A DNA stretch of 64,000 nt, taken from positions 1 through 64,000 of the forward strand of contig NZ_SJPX01000002.1 in NCBI RefSeq assembly GCF_007860175.1, read 5' to 3'. Made by a program: the position numbers and the translations under genes. Shown here piece by piece: positions 4,425 to 52,622 of this stretch. Below the pieces are notes generated by a model. It searched no databases, was not told the origin of the DNA, and saw only the letters and a program-made list of their open reading frames with translations. How positions within the stretch are numbered: position 1 is the stretch's first letter; the number at the start of each line of letters is the position of its first letter. This DNA comes from Rubripirellula reticaptiva (GTDB lineage Bacteria > Planctomycetota > Planctomycetia > Pirellulales > Pirellulaceae).

Positions 4425-4533
4425 GTGTTAGGTGAGAAGTCTTAGGGATTGAAGCAGCGAACACAGGGTTGGGAAGTCCTCTCGAACACCTGATCGGTTG
4501 CCACCAATCCCTCTTTCGAAAGGGGACATGGAT

Positions 4534-5607
4534 ATGCCCGACGAATCACTCAGTCAGAATCAAGTCGAAAGCCTGCTAAAGGCAATGGAAACGGTCGACG
4601 GTGCGCCGCCGAAACCGCAAGCCCCGAAGATCAGCGACGAAAAAAGCCCGACGGCATCAGCCGCCCGTTCAGCGCCCGCCGCCGGCGGGAACGCTCGAGT
4701 TACCGCATACGATTTCAAACGCCCCGAGCGTGTCGGCAAAGACCAGATGCGGGCGATGCATTCGCTGCACGAGTCACTTGCTAGAAACTTCGGTGCGTCG
4801 GTGTCCGGCATGCTGCGGACGATGATCGAAGTCAAACTGCTGAGCGTCGATCAGTTGACCTACAGCGAGTTCGTTTTCAGCCTCGACAACCCAAGCTGTT
4901 TCAATGTGCTCAAGCCCGAGCCGCTGGACGGAAATTGGATTTTGGATATCGCTCCTTCACTGTCGTATGCAATCATCGATCGCATGCTTGGCGGTGACCC
5001 CAATCCCAACGAAACCATCCGGCGTCCCTTGACGGAAATCGAAAACCGTTTGATCGGACGAGTGGTTGCGTTGTTTCTGAAATGCCTAAAAGAATCGTGG
5101 GAAAACATTTCGGAACTCGACGTTGACGTCGAGAAAGTTGAAAGCAATCCGCAATTGGTGCAAATCGTTCCGCCGAACGAGGTCGTGATTCTGATTGGAT
5201 TCGAAGTCTTGCTAGCCAAGAACCGGGGAATGATGAACCTTTGCATTCCCTTTAACACGATCGAGAGTTTCAATTCTCGGCTGTCTCGCAACGGCTGGGT
5301 TGGCTACGGCAAAGGAACACCGACCGTTGAGACTCGTGATCGAATTTCAACGAGTGTCAAAGATGCGCCCGTTGACATTGTCGTCACGCTTGCGACATCA
5401 AAAATTCGAACCAGAGACCTACTAGAACTCGCGGTGGGCGACATCATCACGACGGAAAAGGAGGTCACGTCGCCGCTTGAGTTGGCGGTCCAGGATGTGC
5501 CTAAGTTCCACACTCGTGTCGGTGCTTTCAAAGGCAAGAAGGCAGTGCGAATCGAGTCAGTGATGGAACGTCATAAACAAGCCCCACCTCCCAGCGAGAC
5601 CCCGTAA
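4534..5607 (+). CDS. fliM: Flagellar motor switch protein FliM
   Basis: Component of the cytoplasmic C-ring that binds phospho-CheY and sets the direction of flagellar rotation. The N-terminus carries the CheY-binding/EIDALL-like segment LSQNQVESLLKAM, followed by a low-complexity Pro/Ala linker. The middle domain (about 60-245) has the usual FKRPERVGKDQMRAMHSLHE and LDNPSCFNVL blocks. The C-terminal SpoA domain (about 270-345) reads VDIVVTLATSKIRTRDLLEL. AGGGG at 4521-4525 lies eight bases before the ATG at 4534, which decides the start over in-frame 4528 and 4498. The protein is 357 residues. No other flagellar gene is in the window, so this fliM is solitary. Confidence 0.93.
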   Translation: MPDESLSQNQVESLLKAMETVDGAPPKPQAPKISDEKSPTASAARSAPAAGGNARVTAYDFKRPERVGKDQMRAMHSLHESLARNFGASVSGMLRTMIEVKLLSVDQLTYSEFVFSLDNPSCFNVLKPEPLDGNWILDIAPSLSYAIIDRMLGGDPNPNETIRRPLTEIENRLIGRVVALFLKCLKESWENISELDVDVEKVESNPQLVQIVPPNEVVILIGFEVLLAKNRGMMNLCIPFNTIESFNSRLSRNGWVGYGKGTPTVETRDRISTSVKDAPVDIVVTLATSKIRTRDLLELAVGDIITTEKEVTSPLELAVQDVPKFHTRVGAFKGKKAVRIESVMERHKQAPPPSETP

Positions 5608-5862
5608 CAGGATTTAGCTCCGAAAAATCGCACTTCACCCGCCGAACAATCATCGCTGGTGCTACAAGACAGGGACGCTATTTAGCACATCCGAAAACCT
5701 GACGATGCAGCGTCGTAAACGCCGCCTACGCCGCCTACCTGCTCCGAAGGCTCAAGAACCATCGGTCAATCGACCAAACCTGTCAAACGCTGTGCTCGCG
5801 TTTCAGGGGCGTACTGAAGACCGCATCCGTCCCAGAGCAAGATTTTGAGACGCCTAAAAGTA
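5608..5862. other. Intergenic region between fliM and HU-like gene
   Basis: No supported gene. A 47-codon frame from 5704 encodes a very arginine-rich peptide, but its start region is a short local repeat (CGCCGCCTA twice) and it has no good ribosome-binding site. The stretch ends in the terminator of the convergent HU-like gene. Confidence 0.45.
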
Positions 5863-5895
5863 CAAAATAATGGCTCGCCTGGGATCAGGCGAGCC
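5863..5895 (-). terminator. Terminator of the HU-like gene
   Basis: A perfect 10-bp stem (GGCTCGCCTG at 5872-5881 with CAGGCGAGCC at 5886-5895) and a four-base loop. Read on the minus strand it is followed by ATTATTTTG. It lies about 65 bases past the stop codon of the HU-like gene and may also stop transcription coming from fliM. Confidence 0.75.
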
Positions 5896-5961
5896 AAACA
5901 TCTGTTAACGACTTGCAATGCGAGTCGTCATTTTGATTTCTCGATTTCGAAGTGAATGGCT

Positions 5962-6285
5962 TTACGCCATTTCCTTCAGACCCTTCAAAGGGCGAATCGA
6001 CAGCTTCTTGCTAGCTGGTTTTGGCTTCAACCAGATTTCTTGGCCGTCGGCTGGGTTGCGTCCCTTACGCTTTGGCTTAGCGGGAACGTCCTTCAGGACG
6101 ATCTTGCACAGACCAGGGATCGCAAATTGACCAGGGCCACCCTTGCCAAGCGACTTGGCGATTTCGGCGGTCAGGGCGTCGAATACAGCCGCAACGTCCT
6201 TCTTGGTCATTTCGGTTGATTCGGCGATGTTGGCAAGAATCTGGGTCTTGGTGGGTGCCTTGGGAGCAGCAGCTGCTTTTGCCAT
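5962..6285 (-). CDS. HU-family DNA-binding protein
   Basis: A 107-residue histone-like protein expected to bind and bend chromosomal DNA as a dimer. After an Ala/Lys-rich N-terminus (AKAAAAPKAPTK) come the HU helices (QILANIAESTEMTKKDVAAV) and the beta-arm region GPGQFAIPGLCKIVLKDVPA. The sequence then runs KPKRKGRNPADGQEIW instead of the classic GRNPxTGxxI form and ends in a basic tail (KPASKKLSIRPLKGLKEM). The ATG at 6285 fits the family length; an in-frame extension to 6510 is rejected because it adds 75 non-HU residues. AAGG lies about ten bases upstream of this ATG. It is monocistronic, with its own terminator. Confidence 0.9.
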   Translation of the reverse strand: MAKAAAAPKAPTKTQILANIAESTEMTKKDVAAVFDALTAEIAKSLGKGGPGQFAIPGLCKIVLKDVPAKPKRKGRNPADGQEIWLKPKPASKKLSIRPLKGLKEMA

Positions 6286-6567
6286 GGGTGTCAAACCTTT
6301 GTCTGGGAAAGTGTTCTGGGGTCGCTCAAAGCGTGAAATAATTACGCCCGCGATTACTATCGGCAAAGTGTTATGCCGCAAACAGTCTTGTTGCAACCCG
6401 GCTTCGACCAAAAAAACCAACGTTTTCCGGGGTTTTTGGAACGGGCTTGACAGGAAAACCAAGTCTTGACTGCCGAGGGATCGGTCCACCGGCTCCATTT
6501 TCAGACTCAATGAGACCGATTTTTGATGATTTCGGCGGCTACCGAACCTCGGTTTTTAGGCTAAAAA

Positions 6568-9500
6568 CTACACTTCGCTGCGCAGTGCATCATCAATCGC
6601 GGCAACCGAAACATTCTCGGTCTGCGCTAGTTGATCACCGACCAACGAGACGCGTGACAACGTGGTTGCGACCGATTCCATCGCCGAATCGATCGACGAA
6701 ACATCGGTGACTTTTTCAGTTTCTGTTTCGTCACCAATCGATGATTCCACCCATAAATCGCCGTCTTCAAGTGCCAGAACCGCCGAACGGCTTTGGGCCG
6801 GAGCCGCGATCACCGACGGCACGAATGCATCCGCGACCGTCACCGATGCGGTCGCAATCGACTCGCCTTCGGCTTGTTGTTCACCCACGATGATCGAGTT
6901 CGAACCGTTTCCGTTTGACGCAGACTCCGGTGCATCGCTCTGTACCGAACGCGCGACTGAAACATTCGCCGTTGATGCCGAACCTGTCGTGGTGGTTGAT
7001 TCCGTCGTCGTAGTCGCGGTTGCTGGATTGAAAGTAACACCGCCGGTCTGAACGTTAATTTTGAACAACATCAACCCATCAATTTCGCCACGCACTTGAA
7101 CGTTTGGATTATTCACCGTCGAAACCGTGGTTTCGACCGCTTGCGAGGCTCCATTGGTACCCGTCGGCGCGGTGCCACGAATCGTGACGCTGGAACCATC
7201 CGCATTTAACGAAACCACAGGTTGCGAAATGGTATCGGTAGACGGTGATGGCACAACCAAAGAATGTGTTTGCCCCGGCGCCACAGCGACCAGCAAAGTC
7301 TTGCTTGGCGCACTTCCCATCCAGTCACGTATCGAAATGTACTGAGCTTTCAACTGGCCAACGTCCAGTTGAATTGTAGTGTCGCCGTCATCCGCCGCAC
7401 TTTCGATGCTGATTGTCCTGGCTTCCGTCGCCCCCTGCAGGAACCCAATCGCTGGCACATCAACCGTGTAAGACCCAGGCAACACGCCGTCAAAGACAAG
7501 CCCGTTTGCATTGGAACTGATGGTTTTATTGACTTCTTGATTCAGAAGATCCGTACCTTTTAGCACCAATGCAGAACCAAACTGGCCCACATTCGTGTCC
7601 GTCGAATAGTTGACAAAAATGTTTCGCAGCGTGTATTCGGAAACCTGGATCGTCAACGTTCCGCTGCTGGTCAGTGTACCGTCGCTAACGGTGTAAGTGA
7701 CCGTATCAGTACCAGTGAACGTCGTGGACGGTGGCGTGTAGAAAATCGTGTTGGTTGTTGCATCCACCCGAGTCGTGCCGCCGGCGGTCGTCGAATTCGA
7801 CGCGGTCGAGATCGTTAGCGTTTCCCCCGAGTCGACGTTGGCAGGCAATTCGGTGAGAGCTAACACGCTAAACTCCGTCGCGCTGCCTCGATTGACGGTA
7901 ACCGTTTTATCCAAAGTCGGTGGTGCATCGTTAACCGGCGTGACTGTAAACGTCGCGGTCCCCGTTGCGACTCCGCCACCGGTATCAACGATCGTGTAGG
8001 TAACGACTTCGCTACCAGCAAAGTTTTCTGCTGGACGATAAAAGAACTGAGTACCATCGGCGCTCACACGCACCGATCCGCCGGATGATGCGCTAGCCGC
8101 GGTCAACTGAAATGCTTGATTGCCAGCGTCACGCGTATCATTAGCTGTGACATCAAAAACAGCTTCGGCAGCGTCTTCGACCACGGTGAAGGCATCCGCA
8201 ACCGCCACCGGCGGTTCGTCCGACGATTGGACAGTGACCGAAACAGTTGCTTGATGGGTCAAGCTGCCGTCACTAATCGTGTATGTGAATGAATCCGCAC
8301 CGATGTATCCAGCCGCCGGTGTGTAAACGACCGAAGCACCGCCGGTTGCGATTGTCACGGTTCCGCCAGCCGAACTGGTTCCCACCGCAGTGACTGTAAG
8401 CGTCTCGCCCGAATCCGGTGCAAACGTATCGTTGGCCAGCACATCGAGTGGATTGCTGACCGAGTCTTGGTCGACCGTAAACGAGTCGTTAACCGCACTG
8501 GGCGAATCATTCACCGCCGTTACTGTCACAGTGACGCTGCCGTCTTTCTGTGATCCAGAGCTGTTTGCAACTCGATAGGTAAATTCTGCGGTGCCGTTAA
8601 AGTTCGCGGATGGCGTGAAGGAAACCACACCACCGACCAGGGTTACAGTGCCACCGGTTGTCGGTTGGTCAACCGAAATGACGGACAACGTACCTGTGCC
8701 ACTGATTACCGTGTCGTTTGCCAGAACATTCAACGTCGTCGCAGCAGAATCTTCCGCGACGGTAAACGAGTCATTCCCAACGGTGAAAGTCTGTCCAATC
8801 TCCAACGACACGTTACCGTAGGCGACCGTTTCAGCAGGAACTCGGTCGTCTTGACCAAACAGCAACACATCGCTGTCGGTATCATCGGCGGGTTCGCTGC
8901 GGATGTTAACGTTTCCACTGGCTTTGGCAATCATGCGAACCGACGCGATTAGACTTTCACCGACGTTGCTCGCGACAATTCGATTGCTCACCGCGCCCAG
9001 TTCGTCGATCAGACCGTCACTGAACGCACCCTTCGGCACCACAGTGAAACCCTGGTCATACTGAATCGGCGTTCCGTCAACAGGTTCAATCAAAGTTCCA
9101 TCAAACAAGATGTCCGCATACGCCGCAAACACACCGGGCTTTGTAAACGAACGAGCATCAACGCCGATGAACTGAAGAAAAAACTCTTGACCAACAGCAA
9201 TCGATGAAATTGCGTTACCGTTCAAGTCAACCACTTGCAACTTAATCTCGGCTTGCGGTTCGCCCGAAACATTGACGGTCAACGTTTCAGTTCGAACATT
9301 GCCCGCGAGATCCGTCAACGAAAAATTGAACGTGTTCGCACCAGCCTGAGCCGCGGTCGGCGTCCAGTTGATCACGCCCGTCACTGAATCGATCGTCGCG
9401 CCAGCAGGATTCGTGGTCAAGGTGTAGCTTAGCCCGCTGCCCTCTTCGGTGCTGATCAGGTCCGTCACAAAGGCGCGACCGACGTTTGCCTGAGTCGCTG

Positions 9501-44137: not shown

Positions 44138-44854
44138 ATGACAGTTCAACTATTGCGCGTTTTTGGGATCGTTTTGACGATGGGGATGGCTGCGATGGGG
44201 CAAGAGGCCGACGACCCGTTTGGCGGTCCGAGAAACGCTCCGCCGGTAACAAAAGCAAGCGAGCGAACCGCAAAACCAAAAATCGAGTTAGTTCCGTCAA
44301 GTGACAGCTCGATCGACGAAACCGAAATGAAGATTCGCCAATCGATGTCCAAACGAACGTCCCTCTCGTTCGTCGAGCTGCCGCTCGCCGATGCAGCTAA
44401 GCAACTAGCACAAGCTTTTGATTTACCGATCTTGATTGATGCTAAAGCTCTCGAGGAAATCGGCTTATCGGCGCAAGAACCAGTCAATGTAAAATTGCGG
44501 GACGTAAGCTTGCGCAGCATCCTTCGACTGATGCTAAACGACCTTGAACTGACTTACATCGTAAAGAACGAAGTCCTCATGATCACCACCGTTTCGTCGG
44601 CGGAAAGCAACCTGATCACTCGAGCCTATCAATTGCCCGCGTGCATGCAAGGCGATCCTCAAGCGGCGATTGAAGCTATCCATACGACCGTTGTCCCGGA
44701 CACTTGGGATGTGCTTGGCGGACCGAGCACGATCGCGTTGATCAATTCCGTGGTGGTCATCTCGACCACGGAATGCGTTCACGAGGACACAATCGATATG
44801 ATGCGAAAGACAGAAGCGGCAGATTCCCTATCTCGCGACGAATTGAATCGATAG
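44138..44854 (+). CDS. Secreted STN (secretin/TonB short N-terminal) domain protein
   Basis: A 238-residue exported protein. The signal peptide (about 1-21, TVQLLRVFGIVLTMGMAAMG) precedes a Pro/Lys-rich linker. Residues about 70-155 look like an STN domain: LSFVELPLADAAKQLAQAFD, LPILIDAKALEEIG, PVNVKLRDVSLRSILRLML, ELTYIVKNEVLMIT. The C-terminal part (TRAYQLPACM, then TWDVLGGPSTIALINSVVVIS) resembles the N1-like secretin fold, but there is no secretin barrel. It could be a stand-alone periplasmic adaptor. The kinase gene starts 341 bases downstream. Confidence 0.75.
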   Translation: MTVQLLRVFGIVLTMGMAAMGQEADDPFGGPRNAPPVTKASERTAKPKIELVPSSDSSIDETEMKIRQSMSKRTSLSFVELPLADAAKQLAQAFDLPILIDAKALEEIGLSAQEPVNVKLRDVSLRSILRLMLNDLELTYIVKNEVLMITTVSSAESNLITRAYQLPACMQGDPQAAIEAIHTTVVPDTWDVLGGPSTIALINSVVVISTTECVHEDTIDMMRKTEAADSLSRDELNR

Positions 44855-45195: not shown

Positions 45196-48100
45196 ATGTC
45201 TTCCTACCAGACTTCAAACTCACTGCCCTCCGGCCCGACCATGCCAACCATGACTGGGCCGACGGTCAACGTCTTCGACGACCGATTTGAGCAAGTGATC
45301 GAGCAATTTGAAAATGACTGGGACGTCCATCGCCCCAACCGGATCGCCAACGTTCTGGAAGAACATGACAGTGAGGACCATCTGGCATTGATTTCTGAAC
45401 TGGTCCGAATCGATGTCGAGTTGCGGAACAAAGTTTGCGATCCATTTTCAATCGACCAATACTCCGATGAATTTCCCGAACTGATCGACCATCCGTCGTT
45501 GCTGTACGCGATCGGATTCGAAGATTTCCGATCACGTCAACGGTTTGGCTTGCCAGTCGACGTCGAACGTTGGAAACAGATCCCTGGCATCCAAAACGAA
45601 ACTTGGTATTCGTCGCTTCTCGGTGATACTGAGAATGTCAGCGCTCGAAACGATCCAAAGCAAAGCACAAGCGAGAAAGAGCAGAGAAATCGTAAGAACA
45701 CTCCTCTTGATGCAAAGCTGGAACAGTCGCTAGACCAAATCGGTTTTCAAGTCACAGAGCTGATCGGAAGAGGCGCGTTCAGCCATGTCTATCTGGCAAC
45801 CCAACAGGACTTAGCCGACCGATTCGTCGTGCTGAAAATCGTCGACCGTTCGATGACTGAATCTCGCAGTATTGCATTGCTTCAGCACACCAACATTGTG
45901 CCAATCTATTCCAATCACTTGGTTGATCAGAAAACCGTGATCTGCATGCCCTATGCAGGCTGCGTGACGCTGAGCGACCTGGTACCCGACGGTGACAAAC
46001 GTCGCCTCAGCGGTGAGGAAATGGTCGCGACTGTTCGCCAGCGAGTCCGCGATTCACAGATCTCGAAGAAACCACAGTCTGCTTCACCGGCGGCTGACGA
46101 TCTCTCAGCGATGACACCACTGGACCGAATCTCGCGACTCGACAGCAGCGATTTGATTACGTGGGTTTTCAAACGAATAGCCAGCGGACTCATGCACGCT
46201 CACGCCAGAGGGATCTTGCATGGCGATATAAAGCCAGCGAACGTCCTGATTCGAAACGACGGCGAACCCGCACTTCTTGATTTCAATCTTTCACATCTCA
46301 TCGACTCGGCCACTGCAAAGCACGTCGGCGGAACGCTTCCGTACATGGCTCCTGAAAACCTTCTGGGAATGGTTCGTCATGAATCGACCTTGAGCGTGCC
46401 TTCCGACATTTATGGTTTTGGCGTGACGATGTACCAATTCGCAACCGGGCGACTCCCCTACACGGCGCCGAATTCAAAATCTGATGCCGATCTAACCCGT
46501 GCGGCCGAGGATCGCAGCAACCCTGTGAAGTGGCACAGCGGTGACGCTGTTCCGCCGAGTTTGCGAACCATCATTGAAAATTGTTTGGCGTTTGACGCGA
46601 ATGATCGGTACGAAAGTGCCCAGCAGCTGCATGATGATCTGGATTGCGAGTCGAAGAACATTCCGCTGCGACATGGCCACGATCGAATCGGAACACGACT
46701 TCGAAAGTATGCCAAACGACATCCGAAGTTGACATCCGGCGGATCGGTCGCCTTCCTGATTGCGATGTCGATGATTCCGCTGATTGGGCTGGCAGCCGCG
46801 TGGCGGCAACGATCGCAACAAGCTGGCGTTGTTGAACAACTGAATCAATTTTCGGAACGTTCAACGCGGGTTCTGGCATCGATGATTGCCAACCCAGTTC
46901 GCCACACCGAACAGGAAATTGACGCTGCAATGCAGCCGCTGGCCGATCTTGGCGTACTGGACCCAGCCGCATTCGACGTCTCGACTTTGGACGATCTTCC
47001 CAACGAGCAGGGAAGCAAGTTTCGCGAGAACATGCTGCGTCACATCAACCAAGTCGCCATCTTCGAAGCCGACCGATTGATCACCGATTCGCGAAGCTCG
47101 CCCATTAAACCATCCTCGCTGCGGCGACTCGACCAACTGCAAGTCGCGGGGACTCGGGTCCTCAATGGGCGAGATTCACGGTCGCATCAATACATCGAAG
47201 TTGAGAAATCTAGAATCAAAGGTGACCGACAAGCGGTCAAGACCAAACGTGACAAGGCCAGTCAAACTGAAATGACCTCGGACACCGAAGTCTATTTGGA
47301 AGCCGTACGACTTCTAAAGAAAGAACAATGGGGCGAGGCAGTCGACATGCTCACTTCGCTTGCCGATCGCGGGGCGATTCCTCCGGAACTGCGATGGACA
47401 GGCCTTGGTCGTTCGCAATACAGCGAACGAAACTATGAAAAGGCGATATTGTCGTTCACTCAGTCGATCGAGCGATCACCCGAATCATCTCGGCTAAGAC
47501 TATTGCGTGGACTCTGCTATCTGCAGCTATCGCGTGGCAATCCCGCCGAACAAGACTTTTCCGAAGCGATACGCCTGGATCCTACCAACTGGAAAGCGTT
47601 GACGAACCGCGGTTTGATCCGCTTGGGACGCAACCAAGCACCGGATGCGATCGAGGACTTTACGACGGCAATGAAGTTCGCCCCTGATCCGGGGCACTTG
47701 CTGTTATTGCGAAGCCGCGCCTACCGTGACCTTGGCGACCAAGAGGCCAGCCAACGCGACTTTGACGAAGTGATGCAGGCGAAAAACCTGTCTGCTGCTT
47801 CATTGGTGTCGCGGGCGCGGGCCAGAGAAAAATCGGATCCCAACGCCGCCTTGTCTGATCTGCAAGCTGCCTTGGCGATGGATCCGAATTCGACAGAAAT
47901 CCAACTCGCGATGGCTAGCTTGTTGACGATCGAATTGAAGCGAGACGCAGAATCGATCGAGTGTCTTAATGAAGTAATCAAGAAACAACCCGAGAACAAG
48001 CGTGCCCTCGCCAACCGGGCCGTTTTGCGTGCAAGGCTGAAGCAATTCGACCTGTCCAAAGCAGACGCATTGGCGGCATCGGCACCACCCACGACTGGCC

Positions 48101-48378
48101 GCAATCTCTACCAAGCAGCTTGCGCATCCGCACTTCTGCCAGACCAAAACAGCCATATCCGCGCGCTATCGTTGCTAAGTCAAGCCATCCGATCCGGCTA
48201 TGAAGCCGACAATTTAGCAATTGACGAGGATTTGGATTCCGTTCGCAAAATGCCAGGTTTCCAAGCCATCAGTCGCACCTACCAACTTGCCAATTTGATG
48301 AAAGGCAAGCAATCAAAAGCTGCATCGAAAGAGTTGTCCGAGCCACTCCTAGACAAAACCGCCGACGTCGTCGAATGA
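45196..48378 (+). CDS. Membrane Ser/Thr protein kinase with TPR repeats
   Basis: A 1060-residue Hanks-type kinase. An N-terminal regulatory segment (about 25-130) has FENDWDVHRPNRIANVLEEH and DPFSIDQYSDEFPELID, a pattern seen before planctomycete kinases. The kinase domain (about 184-490) has GRGAFSHVYLA, VVLKIVD (Lys214), HGDIKPANVLI (342-352), DFNLS (362-366) and GGTLPYMAPE. HGD and DFN replace HRD and DFG; Lys, Asp and Asn catalytic residues remain, so activity is likely. An insertion (about 265-310) is Ser-rich. One membrane segment (about 530-552, AFLIAMSMIPLIGLAAA) puts about 500 residues outside, including TPRs (about 695-1000: AVDMLTSLADRGAIPPEL, AILSFTQSIERSPES and others). It leads the cluster with the tyrosine-rich protein and the sulfotransferase. 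Confidence 0.88.
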   Translation: MSSYQTSNSLPSGPTMPTMTGPTVNVFDDRFEQVIEQFENDWDVHRPNRIANVLEEHDSEDHLALISELVRIDVELRNKVCDPFSIDQYSDEFPELIDHPSLLYAIGFEDFRSRQRFGLPVDVERWKQIPGIQNETWYSSLLGDTENVSARNDPKQSTSEKEQRNRKNTPLDAKLEQSLDQIGFQVTELIGRGAFSHVYLATQQDLADRFVVLKIVDRSMTESRSIALLQHTNIVPIYSNHLVDQKTVICMPYAGCVTLSDLVPDGDKRRLSGEEMVATVRQRVRDSQISKKPQSASPAADDLSAMTPLDRISRLDSSDLITWVFKRIASGLMHAHARGILHGDIKPANVLIRNDGEPALLDFNLSHLIDSATAKHVGGTLPYMAPENLLGMVRHESTLSVPSDIYGFGVTMYQFATGRLPYTAPNSKSDADLTRAAEDRSNPVKWHSGDAVPPSLRTIIENCLAFDANDRYESAQQLHDDLDCESKNIPLRHGHDRIGTRLRKYAKRHPKLTSGGSVAFLIAMSMIPLIGLAAAWRQRSQQAGVVEQLNQFSERSTRVLASMIANPVRHTEQEIDAAMQPLADLGVLDPAAFDVSTLDDLPNEQGSKFRENMLRHINQVAIFEADRLITDSRSSPIKPSSLRRLDQLQVAGTRVLNGRDSRSHQYIEVEKSRIKGDRQAVKTKRDKASQTEMTSDTEVYLEAVRLLKKEQWGEAVDMLTSLADRGAIPPELRWTGLGRSQYSERNYEKAILSFTQSIERSPESSRLRLLRGLCYLQLSRGNPAEQDFSEAIRLDPTNWKALTNRGLIRLGRNQAPDAIEDFTTAMKFAPDPGHLLLLRSRAYRDLGDQEASQRDFDEVMQAKNLSAASLVSRARAREKSDPNAALSDLQAALAMDPNSTEIQLAMASLLTIELKRDAESIECLNEVIKKQPENKRALANRAVLRARLKQFDLSKADALAASAPPTTGRNLYQAACASALLPDQNSHIRALSLLSQAIRSGYEADNLAIDEDLDSVRKMPGFQAISRTYQLANLMKGKQSKAASKELSEPLLDKTADVVE

Positions 48379-48425
48379 CGCTGGCAAATCAATACTAAAA
48401 CCCAATACCATTGCACAGGAAATAC

Positions 48426-50462
48426 ATGACATCGTCAAAGCGTCGGACTCGCCCTAAAGCTGCGAATTTCGAAACACTTGAACGGCGAGCCCTGCTCGCG
48501 GCGTTCGGCACACCATGGCCCGAGGCTCGCGATCTTTCAATTAGTTTTCCGGCAGATGGCGTCGCGATTGGCGAACAAAGCAACGACATTCGCGAAACGC
48601 TAGACCAAACAGGGGTCTCGAGCCAATGGCAAGAGCTTGCTCTGAGGGCCTATCAAACTTGGGCCATTCACGCTGACATCAACGTTGGTTTGCGCAACGA
48701 TTTTGATGTCGCATTCGGAGCAGCGGGAAAAATCAGTGAAGACCCTCGCTTTGGTGAGTTTCGTATCGGTGCGTTCCCCCAACAGGGGCTGATGGCAAAC
48801 TCATTGCCGTTTCAAGCCGTTGCCGGAACGTACTCGGGAGACCTGTTACTGAATTCAAATCAGAATTTCCGAGTCAACGATTGGACCGGCGGAGCACCGG
48901 ACACAAGCACTTGGGATGCCAACGACCGCGATCTTTTTAGCGTGTTTCTGCACGAAGCCGGCAACACACTTGGCGTCGATGACAGCCAATTCAATTGGAC
49001 AGTGATGTTTCGTCAATACACGGTTCCGAAAGGAATTCTAAGTGCAGAAGACATAGCCGAAATCCAAAGTCTTTATGGCCAACGCACCGATCCTTACGAG
49101 ACAGCGGACAACGGCAGCGTTCAATTCGCAAGCGTGGTCCCCGAGCCGATCGGCTTTGATCCTCAGGCGGACGTTATCCGCACTCGGGGAAGTTTGGTCT
49201 CGCCAACCGATGTCGACCATTACCAAGTCACTTCATCAGCCGGCCAAAACACGTTAACGATCAAACTGAAAGCCGAAGGCGTTAGCCTTGTGAAGTCGAA
49301 AGTTGAAGTTCTCGATTCAACTGGCGCAGTGATTGCCACCAGTAGCGCCGCATCCGTTTTCGAAAACAACCATTCCGTATTGCTGTCGGGACTGTCCGGC
49401 GGCCAGGGGCTAACGATTCGGGTCTCGGCCGACGACCCATCGGATATATATTCAGTCGGCGACTACATCCTTGAACTTGACTATCGATCCATTGCGGTTC
49501 AGCAACTCGACCTTGTCCCGGGCGACTACCAATCCGGTGCGGACACGCTGTTTACCGAGTTCAGCTTGGCCGATGAGGAAACGTTAGCACAAACGATCGC
49601 TTCCTCCGACACGGTTGCCGCAACCCCTGCAGCAACCAATCGGTTTGAGGTGGTGTCATCGGTTGCGTCAGCGACAGATTCCGATGTTTGGGAGATCACC
49701 GCACCGACGGGCAGCAACCAGCAGTTGATCGTGAACGTTGCCGGCGTCGGTAACGATGGACCGGAGCTTCGGTTACTGGTAATCGACAGCAATGGTCAAT
49801 CCGTCGGCACATCGGCCAGACTTCGCGACGATGGTTCATGGTCCGTTGAAGTCGCCGAACCGGTCGCGGGGGCGGCGTACTATGTTCGCATCAGCGTTGA
49901 CCCCAACTCGGCCGTCAATGTCGGCAACTATGTAGCCGTTGCCGAGTTCTTGTCGCCAACCCAGCAAATGAACGAACTCGTTGCGGGAACAGCATCGTCA
50001 ACGATCGATGAATTCTATCGGTGGTCCGCAGGCAAATCAAAGCTCTACCGTTTCGATCTCAGTGCGTTTAGCGGCGGAGTAGATGAAGGTGTTCGCCTTA
50101 GGATCTACGACACGTTCACCAAGGAACTGCGGCTCGTCATCAGCTCGCAAAACGACATGACCCGATCGGGCTTCGCTTGGTTGGACCAAGGCGATTACAT
50201 GCTGCGTGTCACCACGTTCTCAGACGTCGAACTTCCAGTCGATGAGATCGACTTTGTCGTTCAAGTGGATGGCATTTCAGATGACCAGGACGAAGACCCT
50301 TACGATCCAGAATCCGATCCTTACTACGACCCGTACGAATACGAATACGACCCGACTTACTACTACTATTACTATTCGAACTACGAGTACTACTATGACT
50401 GGGATGCGTACTACGAGTACGACGGCGACCCTGAATACGAGTACTACTACACCGGCCCGTAG
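48426..50462 (+). CDS. Secreted matrixin-like protein with tyrosine-rich acidic tail
   Basis: A 678-residue exported protein starting 47 bases after the kinase. AGGA lies five bases before the ATG at 48426. A basic N-terminus is followed by the planctomycete motif FETLERRALLAAFG (15-28). Residues about 38-220 resemble a matrixin-type metalloprotease (LALRAYQTWAIHADINVGL, LFSVFLHEAGNTLGVDDS), but the zinc motif HExxHxxGxxH reads HEAGNTLGVDD: the second His is Asn180 and the third is Asp186, so it is probably inactive. Residues about 230-610 hold PPC-like beta domains (DVDHYQVTSSAGQNTLTIKL, SDVWEITAPTGSNQQLIVNV). The last 60 residues (619-678) contain 23 Tyr, 12 Asp and 8 Glu, including six Tyr in a row. 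The TPR-sulfotransferase follows by 117 bases. Confidence 0.85.
   Translation: MTSSKRRTRPKAANFETLERRALLAAFGTPWPEARDLSISFPADGVAIGEQSNDIRETLDQTGVSSQWQELALRAYQTWAIHADINVGLRNDFDVAFGAAGKISEDPRFGEFRIGAFPQQGLMANSLPFQAVAGTYSGDLLLNSNQNFRVNDWTGGAPDTSTWDANDRDLFSVFLHEAGNTLGVDDSQFNWTVMFRQYTVPKGILSAEDIAEIQSLYGQRTDPYETADNGSVQFASVVPEPIGFDPQADVIRTRGSLVSPTDVDHYQVTSSAGQNTLTIKLKAEGVSLVKSKVEVLDSTGAVIATSSAASVFENNHSVLLSGLSGGQGLTIRVSADDPSDIYSVGDYILELDYRSIAVQQLDLVPGDYQSGADTLFTEFSLADEETLAQTIASSDTVAATPAATNRFEVVSSVASATDSDVWEITAPTGSNQQLIVNVAGVGNDGPELRLLVIDSNGQSVGTSARLRDDGSWSVEVAEPVAGAAYYVRISVDPNSAVNVGNYVAVAEFLSPTQQMNELVAGTASSTIDEFYRWSAGKSKLYRFDLSAFSGGVDEGVRLRIYDTFTKELRLVISSQNDMTRSGFAWLDQGDYMLRVTTFSDVELPVDEIDFVVQVDGISDDQDEDPYDPESDPYYDPYEYEYDPTYYYYYYSNYEYYYDWDAYYEYDGDPEYEYYYTGP
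50280..50459 (+). other. Tyrosine-rich acidic C-terminal tail (coding segment)
   Basis: These 60 codons of the matrixin-like gene encode 23 tyrosines and 20 acidic residues (examples: DPYYDPYEYEYD, YYYYYY, DWDAYYEYDGD). Tyrosine is written as TAC 20 times and TAT 3 times, and the codons are interleaved with GAC, GAA and GAG, so it is not a pure trinucleotide repeat. Acidic residues next to tyrosine are what tyrosylprotein sulfotransferases prefer. Confidence 0.9.
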
Positions 50463-50579
50463 TCTTTTCCGACCAAGTCGATTCAGTTTCCTATCTTAGC
50501 ATCCAGTTTGAAGCGGTTGCCGCTCCAAACGGCTGTTTGTCCGAATACGCAGCGGACCTTTCTACCTTCAGGGGTGTCT

Positions 50580-52622
50580 ATGAGTTCTACGATATCGGTC
50601 AGTCCTGAAACCCTGACTCGGGTCTTGCAGCGAATGTGCGGTGCCGACCCGAATTCATCGAGCGCATCCGAACGAGACTTGCAAGTGGCGATTCGCCAAG
50701 CAAAGAAGCGAGTCAACCTCGATCCCAACGACCATCATTTCCAAACTGTCCTTGCCGCTTGGGAGTGCTTGGATGATGAACCGCAATTGGCCATGGAACG
50801 ATTGCGTCCGTTTCTTGGGTCTGCGGAAGCGTCAGCCGACACGCTAACCATTGCGGGTTACGCGAGCGTTCAGTCGGACCAGTATGAGCAAGCACGACAG
50901 ATGTTTGATCGCGTTGTCAAACTGGATCCACATCGTTGCGAGTGTTGGACGATGCTTGGTCGTATCGCGTCCCATGCCGAACAGTCCGATTGGGCGATTG
51001 AATTCCATAAGCGGGCGATTGCCTTTGGTGATGACTGCAGTGAGTCGGCGATCGAGTTGTCTGGCATCTACGTGCGACATAAACGGTTGGACGACGCCAT
51101 CCATATGCTTCGAGTCACTTTGCTGCGGCAGCGCAATCACCCCAAACTGAATCGAACGCTCGCCCGACTGCTGCGCAAACGCAGCATCCTGTTAGGACGA
51201 CAAGGGAAACGTGTAGCCCGACAACGAATCACCGAAGAACGACTACAGTGCCTGCGATCAGCCAACGGTGCTGCACCTCGCCCCGATAGCTACGTTCGCC
51301 AAGGACGAATCGAGGCCCGACTAGAACGATACGACGAGGCTAGGCGGTCATTCGAACAGGCTGTGCGACTGGCACCCGATTGTGCCACTTCGCTGGCCCA
51401 TTTGGCCAATGCCAACGTCGACCGAGGCGAACTGTCGCTGGCGATCGAACAGTTCGAAGCCGCAATTCGAATTGCTCCGGAACACTCAGCAACCCACTTC
51501 AAGTATTCGCGAGCAAAAAAATTCAGTGATAATGCCGCCACTCGCGATTACATCGCAAAGCTGCAGTCAATTTTAAGCCAGGACTCTCTATCGCTAAGAA
51601 GTCAAGTGCATCTACGGTTTGCGCTTGCAAAAGTCTTTGACGACCTAAAACAGTACGATCTCGCTTGGAAAAACTACGATCTCGCGAATTGCCTTAAACC
51701 GGGACACACCGAACATCAGAGCAGTGACAACCAAGCCGAAGCCCGACCCAAAAAGCCACGCCCCAAATCTGAAACCAAACCGCTGAAGCGAATTGCTGAA
51801 GGCGCAATCCGGTTTTTCAACCAGGATCTGTTTGCCGCCAATCCGAACACCGGCGTTCGACGCGATGAGGTTGCCCCCATTTTCGTCGTTGGAATGCCGA
51901 GGTCGGGAACGACTTTGACGGAACAGATCCTAACCAGTCACCCCGAAATTGCCGGTGCGGGGGAACTGAAATCGATCAACAACATTCGGCGTGGAATTGA
52001 GCACGAGATCCGAAACAGAGCCAGAAAGTCATCCACCAAGCCATGTGCCTATCCCGAATCGCTGATGCAGATGGACCGGCATCGACTACAGACGTTTGCG
52101 AATGAGTACCTGAACGAACTGAATACGTTTCGGACGCACGAGCGTTTGGTTACCGATAAGATGCCTACCAATTTCATGCATTTGGGTTTGATCGCCTTAA
52201 TGTTTCCCGATGCAAAGGTAATTCACTGTCGGCGCGACCCACTGGACGTGCTGGTTTCATGCTACTGCCAAAACCTAAACCCACCGTTTTGTGACTTGAA
52301 CGCTCTGGCTTACTACTATCGCCAGTATCAACAGATGATGGACCATTTTGAACGAACACTCCCGATCAAAATCCACCATATCTCGTATGAAGAAACGGTC
52401 GTTGACTGCGAACGGGTTGCCCGCGGAATGATTGATCATTGCGGGCTTTCTTGGGATCCCGCTTGCATAAAGTTTCATCAAAACCGTCGATCCGTCCACA
52501 CACCTAGCAAATGGCAAGTCCGACAACCGATGTACACCTCGTCGGTCCAGAAATGGAAACGTTTCGAAACCCATCTGCAACCGATCATGGAAGAACTGTA
52601 CGAGACGCAAGTCAGCAACTGA
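50580..52622 (+). CDS. TPR-repeat sulfotransferase
   Basis: A 680-residue cytoplasmic protein. Residues about 40-375 hold TPR-like helical repeats (AMERLRPFLGSAEASADTL, ARQMFDRVVKLDPHRCECW, ARRSFEQAVRLAPDCATSL, AIEQFEAAIRIAPEHSATH). Residues about 430-675 form a PAPS-dependent sulfotransferase domain. Its 5'-phosphosulfate loop is VVGMPRSGTTLTEQIL (436-451). The acidic residue E462 in GAGEL is placed like the catalytic Glu of tyrosylprotein sulfotransferases. The 3'-phosphate motif is VIHCRRDPLDVLVSCY (547-562). AGGGG lies five bases before the ATG at 50580. There is no signal peptide, so modification would occur before export unless PAPS is available outside. It is the last gene of the cluster. 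Protein tyrosine as acceptor is inferred from context; glycans or lipids remain possible. Confidence 0.88.
   Translation: MSSTISVSPETLTRVLQRMCGADPNSSSASERDLQVAIRQAKKRVNLDPNDHHFQTVLAAWECLDDEPQLAMERLRPFLGSAEASADTLTIAGYASVQSDQYEQARQMFDRVVKLDPHRCECWTMLGRIASHAEQSDWAIEFHKRAIAFGDDCSESAIELSGIYVRHKRLDDAIHMLRVTLLRQRNHPKLNRTLARLLRKRSILLGRQGKRVARQRITEERLQCLRSANGAAPRPDSYVRQGRIEARLERYDEARRSFEQAVRLAPDCATSLAHLANANVDRGELSLAIEQFEAAIRIAPEHSATHFKYSRAKKFSDNAATRDYIAKLQSILSQDSLSLRSQVHLRFALAKVFDDLKQYDLAWKNYDLANCLKPGHTEHQSSDNQAEARPKKPRPKSETKPLKRIAEGAIRFFNQDLFAANPNTGVRRDEVAPIFVVGMPRSGTTLTEQILTSHPEIAGAGELKSINNIRRGIEHEIRNRARKSSTKPCAYPESLMQMDRHRLQTFANEYLNELNTFRTHERLVTDKMPTNFMHLGLIALMFPDAKVIHCRRDPLDVLVSCYCQNLNPPFCDLNALAYYYRQYQQMMDHFERTLPIKIHHISYEETVVDCERVARGMIDHCGLSWDPACIKFHQNRRSVHTPSKWQVRQPMYTSSVQKWKRFETHLQPIMEELYETQVSN

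Follow-up and report, generated by a model that had tools for sequence, protein, structure and literature searches.

A conserved gene pair of Rubripirellula reticaptiva and related planctomycetes as a candidate cassette for tyrosine sulfation of a multi-tyrosine protein tail

A 64,000-nucleotide stretch of the planctomycete Rubripirellula reticaptiva (contig NZ_SJPX01000002.1, positions 1 to 64,000; hereafter the window) contains adjacent genes for a protein kinase, for a matrixin-like protein with a C-terminal tail rich in tyrosine and acidic residues, and for a sulfotransferase fused to tetratricopeptide repeats (TPRs). The genes for the tail protein and the TPR-sulfotransferase form a real, conserved pair, and from the comparison of sequences this pair is best read as a bacterial tyrosine-sulfation cassette with a multi-tyrosine tail, a reading to which we give a probability of about 0.6. 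The sulfotransferase would probably sulfate tyrosines of the tail in the cytoplasm, before the protein is exported.

Results

Homologues of the tail protein were searched for in 80 relatives and in 241 family genomes; matches were obtained at 0.001 in 24 of the former and at 1e-30 in 37 of the latter. Counting was done on 48 loci at which the matrixin-like gene is complete and the stretch contains a kinase homologue; a sulfotransferase gene lies downstream at 16 of them and not at the other 32. Seven duplicate genomes (L237–L241, L243, L244) and four truncated loci (L127, L128, L129, L148) had been dropped beforehand, L126 and L130, whose genes are broken in frame or fragmented, were removed by the filter for length and completeness, and weaker homologues whose neighbourhoods were not fetched are left out of the count. 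The matrixin-like proteins of all 16 sulfotransferase-positive loci have 13–25 tyrosines in their last 60 residues (mean 17.4), whereas those of the 32 sulfotransferase-negative kinase-matrixin loci have 0–13 (mean 2.9), 31 of them at most five. Weaker homologues with a closed C-terminus (L018, L019, L021, L027, L028, L029, L033, L034) have 0–4 tyrosines in the same segment. At a 17th sulfotransferase locus, in G238 (L126 / L189), the matrixin-like gene is frame-broken and its tail codons are still Tyr-rich. The sulfotransferase gene of G238 persists beside this broken gene, the frame changes being either real or assembly errors.

When the 241 family genomes were searched with the enzyme, 17 matches at or below 1.9e-114 were obtained in the same 17 genomes that hold the tail, the next match following at 6.4e-102 (G105), and in all 17 genomes the sulfotransferase orthologue lies directly 3' of the matrixin-like gene. 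With an enzyme profile run on 396 genomes of the order, the 11 cassette genomes of this sample scored at least 927 bits and other matches at most 493 bits, and no cassette-level score appeared in these 396 genomes outside the genera already known. A profile of the tail protein applied at 1e-40 to 392 genomes of the phylum retrieved the window's own protein only and no relative in the 391 others. At the thresholds used, both tail protein and enzyme are present in 11 of the 14 genomes of genus g93 and neither in three, and in genus g1 both are present in three of 22 genomes and neither in 19; four of these 19 contain remote homologues of the matrixin-like protein (1e-17 to 1e-22). An earlier reading of the window from its sequence alone (the sequence-only reading) had proposed a dedicated enzyme-substrate pair, and the co-occurrence survey supports it: tail and sulfotransferase are present or absent together, and 17 of the 17 genomes with the enzyme have a Tyr-rich tail.

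The last 60 residues of the window's matrixin-like protein contain 23 tyrosines, 20 Asp/Glu and no Lys/Arg. The counts of Tyr and acidic residues given in the sequence-only reading are thereby borne out, and they are above chance in the window and in the genome. Among the 29 open reading frames (ORFs) of the window with at least 250 amino acids, no 60-residue stretch outside this protein exceeds eight tyrosines, and five consecutive Tyr codons on either strand (TAYx5) occur at a single site of the 7.85-Mb genome, which is the tail. The tails of 16 cassette proteins are 41–58 residues long, with 12–25 Tyr, 9–17 acidic residues and at most one Lys/Arg, and TAC and TAT codons are mixed in every one of them, TAC being the commoner. 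Across proteins that are 48–68% identical to the window's over their whole length, the composition of the tail is kept and its sequence is rearranged; composition that is conserved while the sequence turns over argues for constraint. A low-complexity expansion without function, as which a repetitive, predominantly TAC-encoded tail might be taken, is highly improbable in view of the mixed codons in 16 of 16 tails and of the composition kept at this level of identity; moreover, apart from the weaker tail of G051 described below, such a composition was found only alongside the enzyme. In the AlphaFold model residues 619–678, which include the tail, have a predicted local distance difference test (pLDDT) score below 50, and the tail is predicted to be disordered.

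Runs of Tyr codons were also considered as marks of further substrates in the family genomes and were rejected. A TAYx5 site is present in 56 of the 241 genomes, cassette genomes included; 20 such stretches were fetched, 19 of them outside known cassettes, and one of these 19 (G186) gave an ORF with at least 10 Tyr in 60 residues when ORFs of at least 90 amino acids were listed with overlaps removed. Other proteins, encoded at L083 7975–8997 (minus strand) and in L199, have 10–11 Tyr in 60 residues (with 1 and 6 acidic residues, respectively), and no related sulfotransferase was seen in the stretch read.

All 16 sulfotransferase-positive rows fall into a single, fully supported clade in a tree built from the bodies of the tail proteins, and in a tree of 68 enzymes the 17 cassette enzymes form one clade as well (100/100). 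According to the tail-protein tree, tail and enzyme became associated once and were inherited together from then on. The sister group of the tail proteins has Pro-rich C-terminal tails, some of them acidic. The families common to all four cassette genera are the kinase, the tail protein and the sulfotransferase (17 of 17 loci) and an extracytoplasmic function (ECF) sigma factor (15 of 17); in the stretches read at the 17 cassette loci, no further family of ORFs of at least 120 amino acids was found in all four genera, and no transporter family is among the conserved genes of this unit. This gives [ECF sigma]-kinase-tail protein-sulfotransferase as the conserved unit. Sigma70_ECF matched all 10 sigma ORFs scanned, three of which come from loci without sulfotransferase, and in the window's genome an ECF sigma orthologue (61% identical) is located on another contig (G000:C3:333151-333711).

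The catalytic domain of the sulfotransferase matches PF13469 (Sulfotransfer_3) with 159 bits against a cut-off of 27 (2.6e-46), over domain positions 1–216 of 216. In an alignment of the catalytic domains of 13 of the 17 known cassette enzymes, the PRSGTT motif, the Glu 21 residues past its Arg and the Ser of the 3'-phosphate-binding (3'-PB) segment are invariant, and the Arg-Glu spacing of 21 is found in 17 of 17 cassette enzymes. The Glu of the tyrosylprotein sulfotransferases (TPSTs) with which the Glu of GAGEL aligns is, we assume, their catalytic base (Glu99/100), in agreement with the TPST1 alignment. The best matches of the catalytic domain among solved structures are TPST1/2 (phmmer 1.4e-5), and a profile search of solved structures gave TPST1 at 1.9e-16 and CurM at 4.2e-11, level with TPST2. 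The motifs indicate a likely active enzyme and do not indicate its acceptor. Two matches to adenosine 5'-phosphosulfate (APS) kinase lie above the cut-off in the genome and offer a source of 3'-phosphoadenosine 5'-phosphosulfate (PAPS). A hydropathy scan of the sulfotransferase reveals no evident signal peptide or transmembrane segment, which agrees with a cytoplasmic location like that of RaxST.

The AlphaFold model of the whole sulfotransferase (mean pLDDT 80.7) is good over the TPRs and much of the catalytic domain and contains a long TPR superhelix. When this model was used with Foldseek and VIA-align, TPR proteins filled the 50 matches listed, which barely probe the catalytic fold. The superhelix, and a tail that is C-terminal and predicted to be disordered, would also fit a tail that the TPRs recognise for docking or sorting, with sulfation falling on other residues of the protein or on a partner. 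This is nevertheless quite unlikely, as TPR-sulfotransferases are widely found beside proteins that have no such tail, and as conservation of a sequence motif would be expected of a docking tag, whereas the tail keeps its composition.

PF00413 (Matrixin) matches 16 of 16 cassette proteins scanned. The AlphaFold model of the window's protein (mean pLDDT 61) consists of beta-strand-rich domains and the disordered tail; a structure search with this model gave low-TM matches only, and a search of NCBIfam gave no convincing name. The HExxHxxGxxH signature of M10 metalloproteases is absent from the window protein (HEAGNTLGVDD), and the 16 intact cassette proteins have HExxNxxGxxD. Because the sister group of the cassette proteins has HExxN and several tail-less relatives keep an intact HExxHxxGxxH, loss of the zinc site preceded the tail. 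PF07595 (Planc_extracel, LEPR-XLL type) matched one of the 16 cassette proteins at 0.0025, which is below the Pfam cut-off, and the motif is visible by eye; from this LEPR-XLL / Planc_extracel-like N-terminal motif we infer that the matrixin-like protein is exported.

The kinase has one transmembrane helix (46744–46803, by hydropathy), and its catalytic loop is HGDIKPAN, with DFN in place of DFG. This replacement recurs in the kinases of the module wherever the motif was read, with DFH in L142 and L146. A kinase homologue is present in all 32 sulfotransferase-negative stretches and adjoins the matrixin-like gene in the loci listed. A kinase that is present whether or not the enzyme is there does not account for the tail; given the 32 enzyme-less loci, it seems to form, with the sigma factor and the matrixin-like protein, a module of earlier origin. 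Gating of sulfation by the kinase, an idea of the sequence-only reading, is not supported by these 32 kinase-matrixin loci, of which 31 have at most five tail tyrosines and one has 13, and a part of the kinase in the sulfation step was rejected for the same reason. That the tail tyrosines are phosphorylated by the kinase instead of being sulfated might be suspected from the kinase gene at 17 of 17 cassette loci and from a match to PK_Tyr_Ser-Thr, but this match ranks below Pkinase, the best Pfam match, and a kinase beside so many tails with few tyrosines makes phosphorylation a very improbable explanation.

In the wider family of TPR-sulfotransferases, a clade of eight rows is drawn as sister of the cassette enzymes in the tree of 68 (fork 92/64). 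At four of these rows the neighbour is a giant LEPR-XLL protein; of the remaining four, two end at or near a contig end. The next branch, the long one of L077, is likewise beside a giant LEPR-XLL protein. Ten of 54 non-cassette enzymes are encoded within 1.5 kb of a LEPR-XLL-type protein (motif rule). Two giants that were scanned showed PF07595 above cut-off together with Calx-beta and other repeat domains (PPC or cadherin-like), and three giants read in genus g19 (frames of 6121–9116 amino acids) contain Tyr-rich loops with 12–13 Tyr per 60 residues. The gene neighbourhoods of the wider family suggest that some of its TPR-sulfotransferases may modify proteins.

At L208, L209 and L210 (G105, G104) with L228–L233, TPR-sulfotransferase genes are followed by giant LEPR-XLL proteins (frames of 6121–9116 amino acids) with repeated Tyr-rich loops. 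At L214 of G180 an 805-amino-acid ORF (4499–6916, plus strand), in which one stretch of 60 residues has 13 Tyr and 12 acidic ones, adjoins a TPR-sulfotransferase gene on the opposite strand, and at L071 and L072 (G069:C3 189-226 kb) and at L266, L267, L269 and L270 (genus g30) several genes for TPR-sulfotransferases and other TPR-type proteins stand in tandem.

The coordinates of the window features are listed in Table 1. As described in the sequence-only reading, the three genes are co-directional, with intergenic gaps of 47 and 117 bases, and start with ATG at 45196, 48426 and 50580; the Pfam matches (Pkinase with TPRs, Matrixin, Sulfotransfer_3 with TPRs) agree with the gene identities proposed there. 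An alternative TTG start at 50508 is possible in the open frame of the sulfotransferase. A scan for promoters and terminators gave signals no more than in shuffled sequence. Just 5' of the kinase gene, a 238-amino-acid protein (window 44138–44854) gave a weak match (6e-4) to a model of a type IV pilus outer membrane protein; it is not conserved together with the cassette.

Table 1. Features of the candidate cassette in the window. 5'-PSB, 5'-phosphosulfate-binding.
Feature	Position	Strand	Basis
Protein kinase, best Pfam match Pkinase, C-terminal TPRs	45196..48378	+	PF00069 2.4e-35, TPR models
Matrixin-like protein, LEPR-XLL-like N-terminus, degenerate zinc site, beta-sandwich domains, Tyr/acid tail; proposed sulfation substrate	48426..50462	+	PF00413 1.8e-7
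LERRALLAA, LEPR-XLL / Planc_extracel-like N-terminal motif	48477..48503	+	sequence
HEAGNTLGVDD, matrixin zinc site HExxHxxGxxH with His->Asn and His->Asp; presumed inactive	48951..48983	+	
Tyr/Asp/Glu tail after SDDQD: 56 residues, 23 Tyr, 17 acidic, Lys/Arg 0; predicted disordered	50292..50459	+	
TPR-sulfotransferase	50580..52622	+	PF13469 2.6e-46; AlphaFold
Sulfotransfer_3 catalytic domain	51876..52460	+	
PRSGTT, 5'-PSB motif	51897..51914	+	
Glu of GAGEL, 21 residues past 5'-PSB Arg, aligned with second Glu of TPST1 GEE	51963..51965	+	
RDPLDVLVS, 3'-PB segment, last residue the invariant Ser	52233..52259	+	alignment

Discussion

The mechanism that we propose begins in the cytoplasm, where the TPR-sulfotransferase, supplied with PAPS, would bind the matrixin-like protein, its TPR superhelix serving as docking surface, and would pass sulfate to several of the clustered tyrosines of the disordered acidic C-terminal tail. 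The matrixin-like protein, whose zinc site has been lost and whose beta-sandwich domains have been kept, would then be exported, and the displayed tail, a dense polyanionic and aromatic segment, might bind basic partners, calcium or matrix. With the ECF sigma factor, the kinase encoded upstream would make up a signalling module of earlier origin, by which this protein is controlled or sensed with or without a tail.

Several observations weigh against sulfation of the tail tyrosines. In the tails, Asp/Glu is found at position -1 of Tyr 66 times versus 74.5 times in shuffled tails, slightly below, and an enrichment at -1 was therefore rejected; at +1 the count is slightly above (84 versus 74.7, a value reached by 71 of 1000 shuffles), and -3 is the sole position clearly above (91 versus 71.7). 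The acid distribution differs from the strict Asp(-1) rule, and of the Tyr-next-to-acid context for sulfation on which the sequence-only reading had drawn, the acidic tail is present but the enrichment of acid at -1 is not. Concerning the enzyme, the same Arg-Glu spacing is found in 51 of 51 non-cassette relatives with a recognisable motif (54 examined) and, being family-wide, is not diagnostic of TPSTs. The PAPS motifs and the TPST-like Glu of GAGEL that had been pointed out earlier are intact, and this Glu aligns with TPST1 GEE, but they are common to non-cassette relatives and were rejected as proof of Tyr specificity. Two of three other PF13469 enzymes match TPST1 at lower E-values (1.1e-7 and 5.5e-8) than the window's (1.4e-5), the third giving hardly any match, and a resemblance to TPST special to the window enzyme was rejected by these controls.

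The neighbourhoods give further points of this kind. At 44 of 48 non-cassette TPR-sulfotransferase loci read there is no ORF with at least 10 Tyr in 60 residues, the four exceptions being the three g19 giants and L214. The sequence-only reading had counted sulfotransferase homologues beside proteins without Tyr-rich tails as evidence against itself; these are found in the wider family and not among orthologues of the window enzyme. In G051 (L068, G051:C85), a kinase-matrixin pair has a 13-Tyr tail, but the 20 kb read contain no sulfotransferase gene; the last 60 residues of its matrixin-like protein contain six Phe/Trp and only nine acidic residues and are more Phe/Trp-rich than the cassette tails, and the genome has seven PF13469 matches elsewhere. 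As the tail proteins form a single clade with one gain, the 17 loci are not independent. Finally, a hydropathy scan of the matrixin-like protein showed no N-terminal signal peptide, so that for its earlier description as an exported protein the LEPR-XLL-like motif speaks but a classical signal peptide is missing.

The single origin of the pair also bears on the explanation that the sulfotransferase acts on a surface glycan or other acceptor, possibly on the matrixin-like protein, and that the Tyr tail is a separate, co-inherited invention with, for example, an adhesive, metal-binding or dityrosine-forming role. Common inheritance can explain the correlation, the motifs are not Tyr-specific, and PF13469 is used as a marker of sulfated polysaccharide synthesis in the excerpted text of PMC9723792, where such genes of microbial-mat genomes, including some planctomycetes, are read as polysaccharide sulfotransferases. 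On the other hand, tail and enzyme are never separated in 17 genomes, no ORF family beyond the four cassette genes is common to the four genera in the stretches read, and the tail sequence changes while its composition stays. We consider this explanation rather unlikely, and sulfation of the tail tyrosines by the neighbouring enzyme remains the preferred reading.

A search of the literature, with subscription journals and preprints outside its reach, found no paper joining tyrosine sulfation with a planctomycete and, by title and start of abstract, nothing on the cassette system; papers on planctomycetes and sulfotransferases dealt, by their listing, with polysaccharides, genomes and other topics, and among those containing LEPR-XLL none was on this topic by title. 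If the proposed reading is true, the cassette would be a bacterial tyrosine-sulfation system beyond RaxX/RaxST, with a dense tail resembling those of vertebrate fibromodulin-type proteins; it would amount to an independent evolution in bacteria of a matrix-protein device known from vertebrates, and would point to a type of substrate for the TPR-sulfotransferases, which are elsewhere interpreted as acting on polysaccharides. A broader idea, which we put forward only tentatively and consider doubtful, is a planctomycete counterpart of the tyrosine sulfation of animal matrix, in which TPR-sulfotransferases would be protein-tyrosine sulfotransferases travelling with Planc_extracel-type surface proteins, a dead matrixin with a poly-sulfotyrosine tail in one lineage and giant adhesin-like proteins with Tyr-rich loops in others, and in which sulfated tyrosine would serve as charged aromatic glue of surface or matrix.

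Among known systems, as described in excerpts of the papers cited, RaxST of Xanthomonas sulfates Tyr-41 of RaxX, a 60-residue precursor secreted by RaxA/RaxB (PMC6637879), and is a cytoplasmic enzyme that acts before secretion (PMC9372746). The cassette is similar in that a bacterial sulfotransferase gene stands beside the gene of its, here proposed, protein substrate. It differs in the 678-residue protein, the 23 tail tyrosines, the TPR-fused enzyme, the kinase and the ECF sigma factor, a distinction drawn from the description of RaxST and not from its sequence, and the combination of a small RaxX-type precursor with linked RaxA/RaxB type I secretion genes that marks RaxX-RaxSTAB is not found here. 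TPST1 and TPST2, the best matches among solved structures, share with the window enzyme the 5'-PSB, the Arg-Glu spacing and an aligned Lys, but are type II membrane proteins of the Golgi (PMC9372746), whereas the window enzyme is a TPR fusion without transmembrane segment whose resemblance to them is common to other planctomycete PF13469 enzymes. The giant-protein-linked TPR-sulfotransferases in Pirellulales-type genomes of the set, which include the clade nearest to the cassette enzyme, are related enzymes beside exported-type proteins too; their neighbours are giants, some with Tyr-rich loops, in which no Tyr/acid C-terminal tail was seen. With the vertebrate small leucine-rich proteoglycans fibromodulin and osteoadherin, which have Tyr-rich acidic termini sulfated at some sites (PMC7310474; PMC9372746), the tail protein shares a terminal Tyr-rich acidic tract on a presumably extracellular protein, although those proteins belong to the vertebrate extracellular matrix, have had sulfation measured at some sites, and are compared here with no claim of homology.

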